Positions 8,642 to 54,592 of a stretch of DNA of 64,000 nt are shown here, in pieces. The number at the start of each line of letters is the position of its first letter. The first letter of the stretch is position 1. The DNA comes from Candidatus Nanoarchaeia archaeon (GTDB lineage Archaea > Nanobdellota > Nanobdellia > Woesearchaeales > JACPBV01), in the NCBI GenBank assembly GCA_028279655.1, contig JANQNH010000018.1, positions 62,001 through 126,000 of the forward strand, in the 5' to 3' direction. The notes beneath the pieces were generated by a model. That model searched no databases. It saw nothing but the letters and a program-made list of their open reading frames with translations, and was not told the origin of the DNA. A program made the translations under genes and the position numbers.

Positions 8642-8818
8642 TTAGTTTGGTCCTTCAAAATTACATTCATGACATTTGTACTTAGCAGCTATCTCTCTAC
8701 AATGCTTGCACCTAATTATCGTTGTTTTTCCGCAGTTTGGACACTGAAACTTTGTAGAGCCTTCTATATTAGCTATTATCAATTTGCATGAACCGCATTT
8801 TAACTGTTCTTGTGTCAT
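8642..8818 (-). CDS. Zinc-ribbon protein paired with aEF-1 beta
   Basis: 58 residues from the ATG at 8818. Eight cysteines form four CxxC pairs (CGSC, CPNC, CKHC, CHEC), enough for two zinc sites. This resembles the small archaeal zinc-ribbon family (HVO_2753-like) encoded next to aEF1B. The frame can extend to a TTG at 8836, but a TATA box (CTTTTTAAATG, about 8840-8850) about 28 bp upstream of the ATG favours 8818. It lies immediately before and is probably co-transcribed with aEF1B. Role unknown, probably linked to translation. Confidence 0.88.
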   Translation of the reverse strand: MTQEQLKCGSCKLIIANIEGSTKFQCPNCGKTTIIRCKHCREIAAKYKCHECNFEGPN

Positions 8819-8841
8819 AGCACTTAGAATTCTCAAGGCAT

Positions 8842-16155: not shown

Positions 16156-17067
16156 ATGAATAATAAAACAAGACAAGATGCGTACAAACAAGCAATGGTT
16201 CTAAGGAAACAAGGGTTAGGTAGAAGAAAGATATATAGGATTCTTGAGGATAGGGGATATGTTAATATTTCTTCTGGTTCAATTTCATCTTGGCTTTACT
16301 ATAATCGCAAACCTAGATTAAAGGAACCTACTGGAAACTATAAAAAACTGACTCCTGAAAAAGCCTTTGTTTTAGGGGTTGTAGGGCCGGGTGATGGGTA
16401 CATATCTTTTTGTAAGATGGGTTTACAAGTGATAGATGAAGATTTTGCTCTTAAATTTAAGATATGTCTAGAAAAAGTATATGGCTTTAAATGTCAAAGA
16501 TATCTACAGAAAAAAAGCGGATATGGGGGGCTTCCAAGACACAAAATTATGTTACATTCGAAGCAAGCAGTATTAGATATAAGTGGTTATGGTGTAAGCT
16601 TAAAGGAAAAGGATTGGCGGGTACCTAACGTAATTAAAGAAGCAGAGAATAGGATTAAAGCTGAATATATACAAGGATTCTCTGATTCACAAGGGTCTGT
16701 TGGGAAAAGAAATATTTCTTTAGCATCAAATAATTTAAAAGGCCTTAGAGAAATAAAACAGCTTTTAACCGATATTGGTATACGAGCATCTATTCAAAAG
16801 AGCAATAATACTAACTTGATAGCTATTCAAGATAGAAAATCTTTGGAAAAGTTTTATTCGCAGATTAGCTTTTGTACTAAACGTAAGGAAAGAAAATTAG
16901 CTACTTTGTTGAGCAAATACAAATTTTATGGAACACCGACAAAAAGAGTGGATCAACTCATGCCTAAAATAAGGGAGTTGAGGCGAAAAGGTTATAAACA
17001 ATATGAGATTGCTAATAAATTTAATATAAACCAATCAACTGTATGTAGGAGACTAAAAGAGGATTAA
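16156..17067 (+). CDS. Free-standing LAGLIDADG homing endonuclease-like protein
   Basis: 303 residues. A helix-turn-helix-like N-terminus (GRRKIYRILEDRGY) is followed by two LAGLIDADG-type motifs: FVLGVVGPGDGYI (residues 71-83) and AEYIQGFSDSQGSVG (169-183). A C-terminal HTH (QYEIANKFNINQSTVCRRLK) ends the protein. In motif 2 the acidic catalytic position is Gln (DSQG), so double-strand cleavage may be impaired. It sits alone between the signal peptidase and tfs genes, one base before the tfs ATG. It is probably a mobile or domesticated insertion. Confidence 0.8.
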   Translation: MNNKTRQDAYKQAMVLRKQGLGRRKIYRILEDRGYVNISSGSISSWLYYNRKPRLKEPTGNYKKLTPEKAFVLGVVGPGDGYISFCKMGLQVIDEDFALKFKICLEKVYGFKCQRYLQKKSGYGGLPRHKIMLHSKQAVLDISGYGVSLKEKDWRVPNVIKEAENRIKAEYIQGFSDSQGSVGKRNISLASNNLKGLREIKQLLTDIGIRASIQKSNNTNLIAIQDRKSLEKFYSQISFCTKRKERKLATLLSKYKFYGTPTKRVDQLMPKIRELRRKGYKQYEIANKFNINQSTVCRRLKED

Positions 17068-46887: not shown

Positions 46888-47008
46888 CACTTGCCAACTT
46901 TTTGGCAAGTGGATAGGGAAGCTGTGATGGCAAAATTTTAGTGTTATGGGGGTTTTGGGGTACCCACTTGCCACTTGCCAAGGGGCTGCGTGAGGTATTT
47001 AAATGAGG
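46888..47008 (+). promoter_or_regulatory. CACTTGCCA promoter module, copy A
   Basis: A 121-bp stretch closely similar to 52437-52556. It opens with a perfect 10-bp palindrome (CACTTGCCAA-CTTT-TTGGCAAGTG) and carries a TGGCAAAATTTT block. It ends with the direct repeat CACTTGCCACTTGCCAA 20 bp before GCGTGAGGTATTTAAAT, which contains the TATA box. It drives the small genes starting at 47122. Confidence 0.7.
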
Positions 47009-47042
47009 GCTCTTTACAATATAGTTATGTTGTTGCAAAATT

Positions 47043-47121: not shown

Positions 47122-47238
47122 ATGGTTGATTTAAGAAAAGAAACAATACAGGATCTGTTCTATAAGCAGGTCAGGAAGCTGACTTTGAGCAAGGCTCAGA
47201 GTTTTGATCTACAGTTTTCAGATGCTTGGATAAACTAA
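47122..47238 (+). CDS. Small ORF of 38 residues
   Basis: MVDLRKETIQDLFYKQVRK is followed by 19 more residues and two stop codons. It has a strong ribosome-binding site (GGAGGTG, 47109-47115) and a clear promoter (copy A). Family not recognised. The next small gene starts 9 bp later in the same frame. Confidence 0.5.
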   Translation: MVDLRKETIQDLFYKQVRKLTLSKAQSFDLQFSDAWIN

Positions 47239-50928: not shown

Positions 50929-52380
50929 CTAGCCTTTCAAAACCCCGATAGGCTCCATCCTGATAACCTTAATAGAAATATCTGAATTGTGGACTGATTC
51001 TATGACGTTTTCAACGTCTTTATATGCGCCTGGTGCTTCTTCAGCAAGTGATTTTGGAGATGTTGCTTTGCTTACTATGCCTTTGTCTGCCAGTTCCTGG
51101 CTTATCTTCTCTCCTCTGAACTGCCTTAATGCTCCATGTCTTGACATTGCCCTTCCTGCTCCGTGTGCTGAAGAGCCAAAGGTCTTTTCCATGGCTGTTT
51201 GGGTGCCTTTTAGGATATAGGACGATGTACCCATAGAACCTGCTAATAGAACTGGCTGGTCTGGGAAGGATCTTGTTGCACCTTTTCTGTGTACGAACAG
51301 TTGTTTCTTTTCATTATCTACCTTATGTTCTTCCAGCTTGACAACGTTATGACATATCCCGTAGATCGTGTGCATGTCCATAGATTCCCAGTCTTTTTTG
51401 AATATTTTTTCAAAGGTCTCTCTTATCCATTGCGTCATCACTAACCTGTTTGTGAATGAGTAGTTTACTGCGCACTTCATAGCTGCGAAATAATCCTGGC
51501 CTTCTTGGGATTTTGCTGGAGCGCATACTAGCTGCCTGTCTGGTATCCATATGTTGTATTTCTTTACAGCTTGTTCTTGGATCTTTAGGTAGTCGCTCGC
51601 TACCTGGTGGCCTAATCCTCTTGAGCCGCAGTGAAGCATAATTAACACTTGGTCTTTATCTGTTACTCCCCATTCTTTTGCCTTGTCGTCATAGATGTCT
51701 GATACTTTTTGTATCTCCAGGAAATGATTGCCTGCTCCTAATGTTCCTAGCTGAGGTTTGCCTCTTTTTTTTGCCAGGTCAGAAACCTTTTTTGGGTCTG
51801 CCCCTTCCATTTTTCCATTTTCTTCGATGTGTTTTAGGTCTTCCTTTACCCCATAGTTGTTTTCAACAGCCCATTCACAGCCGTCTTTTAGGACGCTGTC
51901 TAATTGGTTTTCATCTAGTCTTAGCTTTCCTTTGGACCCTACACCGCAAGGTACTGAGTTGAATAAAGCCGGGACTAACTCTTTTAGCTTTTCTTTAATT
52001 TCTTTGTACGAAAGGCTTGTTCGGATGGAGTTTACGCCGCAGTTTATGTCCTAGCCGACGTATTGTCTAAAGCCACATAAACCACTTGAGATAATCCCCT
52101 CTTCAGCATCAAAAGCAGCTACAGCTCCCATCGGAAGCCCATATCTGGTTAGAATAGCTTTGCTAGACTAAAATCCAAAGTGGGCATCCGGTAAAGCACA
52201 TACAGGTTCAACAACACCTGGGAGGCAACAAACATTGCTTAATTGCTCAATTGCACCGTCTTCCATCGCATCATAGATGGCTTTGTTTGCAATTAATTTA
52301 CCAGCAACCTTCATCTCCTTCCTAACTGTTTTTGGCAATAACCATTCGTAGTCATTTATCTTTTGTAGTTTCTTTTTCAC
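50929..52380 (-). CDS. rtcB: RNA ligase RtcB, mRNA interrupted by two BHB micro-introns
   Basis: RtcB joins 2',3'-cyclic phosphate and 5'-OH RNA ends, the last step of archaeal tRNA and BHB-intron splicing. Proposed exons are 52380-52173, 52142-52069 and 52050-50929, together 1404 nt or 467 codons, the normal length. Unspliced, the frame stops at TAG 52170-52168 and again at TAG 52053-52051. Removing the introns restores PDAHFGYGLPMGAVAAFD and ISSGLCGFDINCGV. The remaining active site is intact (GAGNHFLE, LHCGSRGLGH, ICHNVVK, nucleophile His in SSAHGAGRAMS). The GTG start at 52378-52380 has a GAGGT site and a TATA box (ATTATATAAATAGC, about 52411-52424). Confidence 0.93.
52051..52068 (-). other. 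BHB intron 2 of rtcB (18 nt)
   Basis: The minus-strand RNA forms an exon-exon helix of 9 bp (52083-52075 GGTUUAUGU with 52049-52041 ACAUAAACU), then a 4-bp central helix GGCU/GGCU (two GC, two GU pairs). It has 3-nt bulges UU|A and AG|G cut at the BHB rule positions, and a 3-bp intron helix GAC/GUC with loop AAUAC. Excision joins GGC-TTT to GAC, giving the conserved GF-DINCG of RtcB. It contains the second TAG. Confidence 0.88.
52143..52172 (-). other. BHB intron 1 of rtcB (30 nt)
   Basis: The minus-strand RNA forms exon-exon helix GCCCA/UGGGC (52185-52181 with 52141-52137), a 4-bp central helix UUGG/CCAG (52178-52175 with 52148-52145), and 3-nt bulges AU|U and AU|A. The intron stem is UUAG/CUAA and UAGC/GCUA with an AAA loop. 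Two extra nt (CU) face bulge 2, a slight relaxation. Excision joins GGAT to ATGGG, giving HFG-YGLP, the RtcB consensus HxGYGxP. It contains the first TAG. Confidence 0.88.
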
Positions 52381-52436
52381 GGTTTACCTCTTAGATTATG
52401 TATGTACTCTGCTATTTATATAATTTTTGGCTTTTT

Positions 52437-52556
52437 CACTTACCAACCTTTTGGCAAGTGGAGAGAGGGATTGTAATGGCAAAATTTTTAGGTTTTAGGC
52501 GTTTTGAATGTAGCACTTGCCACTTGCCAACTCCTGGCGTGAGGTATATAAATAAG
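52437..52556 (+). promoter_or_regulatory. CACTTGCCA promoter module, copy B
   Basis: 120 bp matching copy A: palindrome CACTTACCAA-CCTT-TTGGCAAGTG (52437-52460), TGGCAAAATTTTT block, direct repeat CACTTGCCACTTGCCAA (52514-52530) and GCGTGAGGTATATAAAT with the TATA box. It lies between the divergent rtcB and LAGLIDADG genes. The palindrome is about 13 bp upstream of the rtcB TATA box, so both genes could respond to the same regulator. From 52557 to the start at 52697 no further gene or motif was seen. Confidence 0.7.
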
Positions 52557-52696
52557 GAGATCTTCTATGGATTTTGATTAGTTTTCATTCAATATTTCAC
52601 ATCACTTCAAAATGGATTCAACAATCAAATAATGGTTTTTGCTAAAGTTGAAAATCAATTATATTGTTTCACCCTACTAGATATTTGTGATATAAA

Positions 52697-53866
52697 ATGA
52701 ATTCAAATAATAGAGAAATACATCTAAAAGATTTCCCAAAAGACAAAGTAGTTATTTTTTTGGAAGATAAGTTTAGAAAAAAATTGATAGATAATGCTAT
52801 AAATATGTTTGGTAGAGAAGAATTAGCAAGAAGCCTAAACATTAGAAAATTAGATACAATAACTAGATGGAAGGAAGCCAAAATAAATAGGGGTAAAAAT
52901 TGGATAACGCCTCAAGGAATACCCTTGGATAAGCTTGATATCCTGTTGAAGCTACTAAATGTTGATTTAGATGTTGTAGAGGAACATGTTACATCATACA
53001 AATCTAGGGGTAAATCTTTGCAGATAAAAAATCCGAATTTGCCCATATCTGAATCTCCAGTACTTTTTAGGGTTATGGCCCATTTAATAGGAGACGGTTC
53101 CGCAAATGAGAATAATGTTAGTTATTTTAAGAATTTTAACAAAGCAGTGTATGATGAATTTGCGAATGATTTGAAAGAAGTATTTGGAGGTATTGAATTA
53201 TCTTTAAATAAAGATAATGTTGTCTTTCCAATCACTGTTAGGCATATATTGTCAAGCTTTTATAATATAAATTTTGGAACTTTTGATTCTAATATCCCTA
53301 AAAGGTTATTCCATCTATCTCCAAAATATGCTGGGGCATTTATTCATGGATTTTTTGATGATGAGGGGAATGTAGATACTTCTTGTATTAGATTTTATTC
53401 GTTTAATAAAAGAGTTCTTCAAGATATTATACGTCTATTGATAATGAAATTTCCAAAGATTGCATCAATAACTGACCTTAAGGATAGAAAGAAAAAAACA
53501 GGCATAGAATATTATTTCTCAATTAACTCTGCAGGTTTAGAAAATTTCCATAAACTGATTGGATGTACGCATTCATCTAAGAAAGAGAAATTGAAATTTT
53601 ATATCAAAAGGAAACAAAAAGGTTGGAACCATAGAAGTAAAGGGAATACCAAATTAATGATTTTGGAATCTTTATCAAGTACTCCTAAAACTATCTATGA
53701 GTTAACAAATGAATTGCTTGTATCAAGAGAAACTGTTAGGGCTCATTTATTTGGTTATCACAGTGAAAGGAAGAGAAATACTAAAGGATTGATTGAGCAA
53801 GGTTTGGTTGAAATAAAATGCTTTGGAAAATACAATTCTGTAGTTCTTGGACTGAAAAATTCGTAA
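52697..53866 (+). CDS. LAGLIDADG homing endonuclease, divergent from rtcB
   Basis: 389 residues. An N-terminal helical region with HTH character (REELARSLNIRKLDTITRWKE) is followed by two motifs: VMAHLIGDGSA (about 126-136) and GAFIHGFFDDEGNVD (about 214-228), both with the catalytic acidic residue. The C-terminal part is a winged helix (KTIYELTNELLVSRETVRAHLF). No splicing domains, so it is free-standing. Its position beside an intron-containing gene suggests a homing role. Confidence 0.88.
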   Translation: MNSNNREIHLKDFPKDKVVIFLEDKFRKKLIDNAINMFGREELARSLNIRKLDTITRWKEAKINRGKNWITPQGIPLDKLDILLKLLNVDLDVVEEHVTSYKSRGKSLQIKNPNLPISESPVLFRVMAHLIGDGSANENNVSYFKNFNKAVYDEFANDLKEVFGGIELSLNKDNVVFPITVRHILSSFYNINFGTFDSNIPKRLFHLSPKYAGAFIHGFFDDEGNVDTSCIRFYSFNKRVLQDIIRLLIMKFPKIASITDLKDRKKKTGIEYYFSINSAGLENFHKLIGCTHSSKKEKLKFYIKRKQKGWNHRSKGNTKLMILESLSSTPKTIYELTNELLVSRETVRAHLFGYHSERKRNTKGLIEQGLVEIKCFGKYNSVVLGLKNS

Positions 53867-53917
53867 AACCATTTATTTTCGATAAATTTAAATATCTTAT
53901 ATTGTTTGAATATACAT

Positions 53918-54592
53918 ATGGCTGGCGGAGAGGAGATGTTCGAGGATAAAGAGGGCAAGAAGAAAATGGAAAAAGATACTGTCGAAATTAAGATAAGATT
54001 TAACAGATTTTGGCTTGAAAGGGCCATATATATTGTAGTGATCCTCATATTGATAGGTTTGTTGTTCTATAATCCTTTTGGTGCTGTTATCTGCGGGGAA
54101 AACAAGTCAGAGGTTACTTCTGTTCCTGTGGTAAGTGAGCCAGAACCTGAGGTTGAGGGGCCAGAGATTGAAGAAGAACCTGTTGTTGAGACAGAACCAG
54201 AACCTGAACCCGAGCCGGAAGAAGAGCCAGATCTATCAGGAGAGGCAACACTTACTATAGATAAGATAAAACTGGATGAGAATAAAACAAAGGTAGAATC
54301 AATAACCATTAAGATCAACAACCAATATAAGATATTCACTCCACTGGTATGGGTATATTGGTATGATAAGGATAGTGTTGGAGCAGTTAAGGAATTTCCT
54401 AACGGGGGCAAGATCTCTTTTACAGGCGCTATACCTTTGCGCCAGACCTCTGTCAAGAAGCTGGATGATGAGCTCAAGGCACATTATCTTAGAACAGATG
54501 ATGATAGGAGAGAGACCTTTAAGGTCGAGTTGTATGATGCATCTGATAAGACCCTGCTTGATAGCAAGACAAAGTCAATAGCAACAGATTAG
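53918..54592 (+). CDS. Membrane-anchored protein with acidic stalk
   Basis: About 224 residues from the ATG at 53918. A charged cytoplasmic N-terminus, one helix (AIYIVVILILIGLLFYNPFGAV), a Glu/Pro-rich stalk (EPEPEPEPEEEP) and an extracytoplasmic beta-rich domain (LTIDKIKLDENKTKVESI). TATA box AATTTAAATATC (about 53885) fits this near-leaderless start. Function unknown. It overlaps the archease gene end by 4 bp. Confidence 0.7.
   Translation: MAGGEEMFEDKEGKKKMEKDTVEIKIRFNRFWLERAIYIVVILILIGLLFYNPFGAVICGENKSEVTSVPVVSEPEPEVEGPEIEEEPVVETEPEPEPEPEEEPDLSGEATLTIDKIKLDENKTKVESITIKINNQYKIFTPLVWVYWYDKDSVGAVKEFPNGGKISFTGAIPLRQTSVKKLDDELKAHYLRTDDDRRETFKVELYDASDKTLLDSKTKSIATD

Follow-up and report, generated by a model that had tools for sequence, protein, structure and literature searches.

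A free-standing LAGLIDADG endonuclease gene and the two micro-introns of the neighbouring rtcB gene probably form a two-part homing unit, an arrangement known as collaborative homing, in the 64,000-nucleotide stretch of archaeal DNA analysed here (hereafter the window), which belongs to a 2.07-Mb draft assembly and whose closest named rtcB relatives are found in Woesearchaeota and Nanoarchaeota MAGs. Across the order, two genes, rtcB and carB, repeatedly carry micro-introns at the same active-site motifs, and these introns are statistically tied to adjoining endonuclease genes; in rtcB, moreover, the intron sits in the gene of the ligase thought to join spliced exons in archaea. To our knowledge, only few cases of bulge-helix-bulge (BHB) introns in archaeal protein genes have been described. 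A broader proposal, advanced tentatively and with belief and doubt nearly balanced, is that in Woesearchaeota-like archaea the 12-33-nt BHB micro-introns could be immunity tags of free-standing LAGLIDADG endonucleases, masking their targets in the essential genes rtcB and carB and homing together with them, the rtcB ligase being self-dependent; if true, this would represent an active route for archaeal mRNA intron gain. The features of the window on which the argument is built are the following:

50929 to 52050, minus strand: rtcB exon 3, with the stop at 50929 (Pfam RtcB, E 2e-112 for the 50929-51810 part)
52051 to 52068, minus strand: predicted rtcB micro-intron 2, 18 nt, AGACAATACGTCGGCTAG, site B, GF^DINCG
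52069 to 52142, minus strand: rtcB exon 2
52143 to 52172, minus strand: predicted rtcB micro-intron 1, 30 nt, TTTAGTCTAGCAAAGCTATTCTAACCAGAT, site A1, HFG^YGLP
52173 to 52380, minus strand: rtcB exon 1, with the GTG start at 52380
52515 to 52552, plus strand: putative promoter of the endonuclease gene, tandem ACTTGCCA, then TATATAAA (sequence inspection)
52697 to 53866, plus strand: free-standing LAGLIDADG endonuclease gene of the HE-W family, 389 aa (ORF, Pfam, homologue alignment and profile)
53906 to 54592, plus strand: flanking gene that marks the slot

Each of the two rtcB insertions contains a TAG in frame, and the removal of both gives an uninterrupted RtcB of 467 aa, with predicted joined-exon junctions CACTTTGGAT^ATGGGC and GTGGCTTT^GACATAAAC. 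Both fit the BHB rule (3-nt bulge, 4-bp helix, 3-nt bulge, frame restored): intron 1 has a central helix TTGG/CCAG with bulges AT|T and AT|A and a fold z of -4.5, and the predicted minimum-energy fold of intron 2 is a textbook BHB, with bulges TT|A and AG|G, central helix GGCT/GGCT and an outer 7-bp exon helix TTTATGT/ACATAAA. The second interrupts GF^DINCG, the active-site motif of RtcB, and an EndA gene was found in the genome from which the window derives. On these sequence features, 52143-52172 and 52051-52068 are credible archaeal BHB introns. At 30 and 18 nt they code for nothing, in agreement with the view of the sequence-only reading that they are too small for an endonuclease. In the window, an intron-bearing gene is linked to an endonuclease gene that stands on its own, as in collaborative homing.

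The same reading had described an intact two-motif LAGLIDADG gene with HTH parts 316 bp from the rtcB start, and the ORF, the Pfam matches and both catalytic Asp motifs bear this out. The interval from 52381 begins with the intergenic region, the gene proper starting at 52697; the two genes face each other in divergent orientation, 316 bp from start to start, and the rtcB intron sites lie about 525-650 bp from the endonuclease gene; the orientation and this distance both weigh against the homing unit. The LAGLIDADG motifs of the protein are located near aa 128-136 and 217-225, and Pfam detects LAGLIDADG_3 (aa 213-289, E 3.9e-6) and a C-terminal HTH_5 (aa 318-351, E 1.5e-4). Both catalytic motifs, LIGDG (D133) and FFDDEG (D222), are intact, without variation of either Asp among 22 homologues, and the family profile matched PI-PfuI (1dq3, E 4e-14), PI-PkoII and I-DmoI in the PDB, although the window protein alone found no credible relative when searched against single PDB chains. 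In 300 shuffles of the segment the longest open frame reached 134 aa, compared with the real 389 aa, and the GC content of the gene is 29.7%, that of rtcB being 42.6% and that of the whole window 38.1%. The motifs and the catalytic acidic residues support, at the level of sequence, the assignment of this ORF as a LAGLIDADG homing endonuclease. The window was also scanned with Rfam and for tRNAs, without a match, and IMG/VR yielded no relatives of HE-W or of the HE-R family described below.

The distribution of the introns was surveyed in 353 genomes of the order, all draft assemblies, in which about 135 rtcB loci were read as DNA. Micro-introns occur in rtcB of 39 genomes, at the same two active-site motifs: site A introns (29-33 nt) occupy two exact positions 6 bases apart, and those of the site B region (12-32 nt) several exact positions. 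Their lengths, 12-33 nt overall, are often not divisible by three, and all three stop codons are represented; automatic site-B calls of 9 or 12 nt in stop-free loci were dropped as protein length variation. At frame-consistent boundaries, 119 of 120 central-helix pairs are formed in 30 rtcB and carB introns, whereas the shuffling of exon and intron parts between loci gave a mean of 80.8 pairs and reached 119 in none of 2000 shuffles. The state of the intron changed at least 17-19 times on the RtcB tree (in a second tree the G323 row was misaligned and given no weight), and inteins are present in the same rtcB regions of about 40 further genomes. Small shifts of the insertion position, of a few bases inside a single short target, would be better explained by target masking than by descent of a single intron. 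Three loci (L064, L138 and L139) carry at site B 12-nt introns (e.g., ATTAAACCTTAG) that obey the BHB rule although an inner helix is nearly absent, and could be among the shortest introns that can be proposed. In the rtcB of L149 (G179), which also has introns, about 50 nt are missing from the stretch that separates the two sites, reflecting either a real deletion or an assembly collapse.

Evidence for a link between endonuclease and intron comes from HE-R, a separate LAGLIDADG family of about 290 aa, found by searching rtcB flanks with the LAGLIDADG gene adjoining rtcB in G036, whose members lie directly upstream of rtcB or divergent from it. The HE-R alignment gave 17 matches with E < 1e-75 among the 353 genomes and the next only at 1e-32, the two groups being about 40 orders of magnitude apart; 16 of the 17 genes adjoin rtcB, and the remaining one is on a contig end (G251). 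The adjoining rtcB carries introns in 13 of the 17 (G036, G074, G148, G198, G202, G211, G216, G228, G235, G248, G259, G298 and G307), in every case including a site-A intron, and an intein in one (G030), and decayed HE-R remnants adjoin intron-bearing rtcB in G050, G179, G244 and G290. In an exact test stratified by family, for which counts were tallied by hand from search tables and the remnants of G050 and G290 left out, the association gave p 1.2e-8 with remnants and 5.4e-7 without them; in 12-13 phylogenetically independent pairs on the RtcB tree, a test of lower power, the endonuclease follows the intron in about 6 and the opposite occurs in 0 (p about 0.03). Joint presence and absence in the relatives lends strong support to the proposal that the introns are due to an adjacent endonuclease acting in trans, although the main rtcB-specific family is HE-R, and the window gene belongs to the broader HE-W. 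The data do not demonstrate that one enzyme spreads both introns, since HE-R tracks site A and no HE-R was found at rtcB loci with a site-B intron only. An endonuclease beside an intronless rtcB, part of what the sequence-only reading named as refuting its proposal, was encountered in two more divergent HE-R members (G022 and G323), perhaps also in G251; these cases, and the HE-R gene beside an intein-bearing rtcB in G030, count against the pairing. More than half of the intron-bearing rtcB loci have no nearby endonuclease or remnant, as expected from a homing cycle, yet this majority is also compatible with coincidence. As further observations on rtcB flanks, L143 (G183) has a LAGLIDADG gene of another type (262 aa, LMGDGHVQ) 2 kb upstream, two genes from an intron-bearing rtcB, and weak LAGLIDADG-like fragments lie 0.4-1.4 kb upstream of intronless rtcB in L177, L181 and L190 (G279, G282 and G277, of one genus); these fragments are possibly remnants, and as such would argue against strict linkage.

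The slot between rtcB and the gene at 53906-54592 is found in three states. In G003, of the same family and with an RtcB 82% identical, the homologue of this gene lies 73 nt from an uninterrupted rtcB and the endonuclease is absent, so that the junction is an empty site; in G036 the slot holds HE-R and rtcB has one intron; and in the window it holds HE-W and rtcB has two. No LAGLIDADG gene was seen in the 1.6 kb upstream of rtcB in L116-L120, which are near relatives without introns. The comparison of relatives for joint presence and absence supports the pairing of HE-R with rtcB and, as described below, that of HE-W with carB, while for HE-W with rtcB itself there is one positive locus, the near relatives G003 and L116-L120 being devoid of both.

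HE-W was observed beside rtcB in this genome only, a weak point of the proposed pairing; its relatives are located at htpX, nreA, endA, rpL12, topA, aspS, a GTPase gene and carB, with the gene overlapping a gene end in several cases, and the genes adjoining most of them are intron-free. In G041, the HE-W gene is preceded by a truncated copy of the topA start and followed directly by the intact one. The second HE-W gene of the genome studied here is placed between carA and carB, and this carB contains a 23-nt BHB intron (G000:C13, L091 about 8738-8820: GCTGAAT|ATAAGCAATAAGCTTTATCAGAG|TCGACTAT). Micro-introns at GQAAE^FDYSG were identified in about 16 of 105 genomes with carB, and, among the evaluable loci, 8 of 14 with an intron but 0 of 24 without one have an HE-W gene whose end lies at the carB start (p 6e-5), indicating that HE-W at carB behaves like HE-R at rtcB. 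Some carB loci bear a second BHB micro-intron, at GSGA^LKIGE. For the window gene itself, a link to the rtcB introns is suggested, short of proof, by adjacency, the empty-site comparison, the analogy with HE-R and the carB data.

In the homing unit favoured here, the endonuclease would recognize conserved rtcB coding DNA at or near the intron insertion site and cut intronless alleles, and repair from the donor allele would copy the intron along with the endonuclease gene linked to it. The micro-intron, by splitting the DNA target, would protect its carrier, and the tRNA splicing endonuclease (EndA) would remove it from the RNA, as predicted from the fit of the splice sites in sequence and fold; with the intron excised from the RNA, an essential active-site codon could be interrupted and function kept. 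Splicing by EndA and joining by RtcB would follow from established archaeal tRNA splicing, and RtcB, the putative exon-joining ligase, would be required for its own mRNA. After fixation the endonuclease would decay and the intron persist, a stage to which the truncated and broken copies observed may correspond.

Other explanations have to be weighed against this homing unit. HE-W may be an ordinary free-standing homing gene targeting an intergenic slot or gene end, the rtcB introns being old and unrelated; the fact that most HE-W relatives abut or overlap the ends of intact genes (nreA 3′ end, topA 5′ end, htpX, rpL12 and the GTPase gene), positions at which insertion alone can abolish the target, together with the lack of HE-W beside rtcB in other genomes, agrees with this possibility. 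It is nevertheless considered unlikely, since this genome has one other clear HE-W gene, adjoining an intron-bearing carB, HE-W tracks carB introns (8/14 vs 0/24), and the very slot that HE-W occupies at rtcB holds another endonuclease family, with an intron, in G036 and neither of them in G003.

A role of the endonuclease as a maturase-like helper or splicing regulator of the adjoining gene, instead of a mobility engine, could be inferred from the tight linkage to introns, the HTH domains and the precedent of LAGLIDADG maturases of group I introns, but it appears very improbable: many intron-bearing rtcB and carB loci have no such gene, intact introns are found beside decayed endonuclease copies, the catalytic Asp residues show no variation, and BHB introns require only EndA and a ligase. 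Less weight still can be given to the notion that the insertions are not introns at all, and that rtcB is a pseudogene or its TAG codons are read through; both window insertions do contain an in-frame TAG, but those of relatives (12-33 nt) are often not a multiple of three and include all three stop codons, and the insertions fall at active-site motifs of an otherwise intact gene, with the BHB rule fitting at the frame-restoring boundaries, which makes this notion hardly credible.

The proposed homing unit can be compared with several known systems. Archaeal rRNA BHB introns of the I-DmoI type encode LAGLIDADG enzymes, and the case presented here shares with them the BHB type and the LAGLIDADG nuclease, the HE-W profile matching I-DmoI, but differs in that the gene is outside introns too small to encode it and the hosts are protein genes. 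In phage collaborative homing, described for T3/T7-like phages, a cyanophage and the ICP1 terminase, the endonuclease gene adjoins the intron and is not within it (PMC10448857); a free-standing endonuclease by an intron-bearing essential gene, with proposed cleavage of the insertion site and joint movement, is common to both, whereas the phage introns are self-splicing ribozymes and those described here are BHB introns of 12-33 nt, presumably removed by host enzymes, associated with a LAGLIDADG nuclease, a type other than those of the phage systems, at two unrelated genes of archaeal chromosomes. The BHB intron of the cbf5 pre-mRNA of Crenarchaeota, also in an archaeal protein-coding gene, was reported as one old intron with lineage-specific losses, and the account includes no linked endonuclease (PMC2738675); rtcB and carB differ in having several exact positions, many state changes and linked endonuclease genes. 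The RtcB inteins at DIN^C affect the same conserved active-site region but, unlike the micro-introns, are long, maintain an open frame and are removed as protein. Searches of the literature for introns in rtcB or in DPANN mRNAs retrieved nothing, a result that leaves room for reports elsewhere. In practical terms, annotation of genomes of this order will easily mistake rtcB and carB for broken genes and list carB as truncated.

Other observations concern the sequences around these genes. Most HE-W and HE-R genes are preceded by variants of the putative promoter (ACTGGACA, ACTGGTCA plus a TATA box). About 130 bp at the putative promoter of the window HE-W gene (52437-52564) are 77% identical to 46888-47014, a segment upstream of a small ORF (47122-47238, 38 aa) without Pfam match, of which similar small ORFs are present in relatives, and tandem ACTGGACA or ACTTGCCA plus a TATA box is common to HE-W, HE-R and these small genes. 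The window contains a second gene with LAGLIDADG_3 and HTH (16156-17064, plus strand, 303 aa), near a DUF460 gene. A 17-nt core, TTAGTCTAGCAAAGCTA, whose single occurrence in IMG/VR lies within an apparent coding stretch and was judged to be chance, is identical in rtcB intron 1 of the window (52143-52172) and in the carB intron of G066 (L012 2527-2555), a genome of a different family, and the HE-W proteins adjoining these two introns are only distantly related; this identity may result either from transfer between the genes or from a favoured hairpin.
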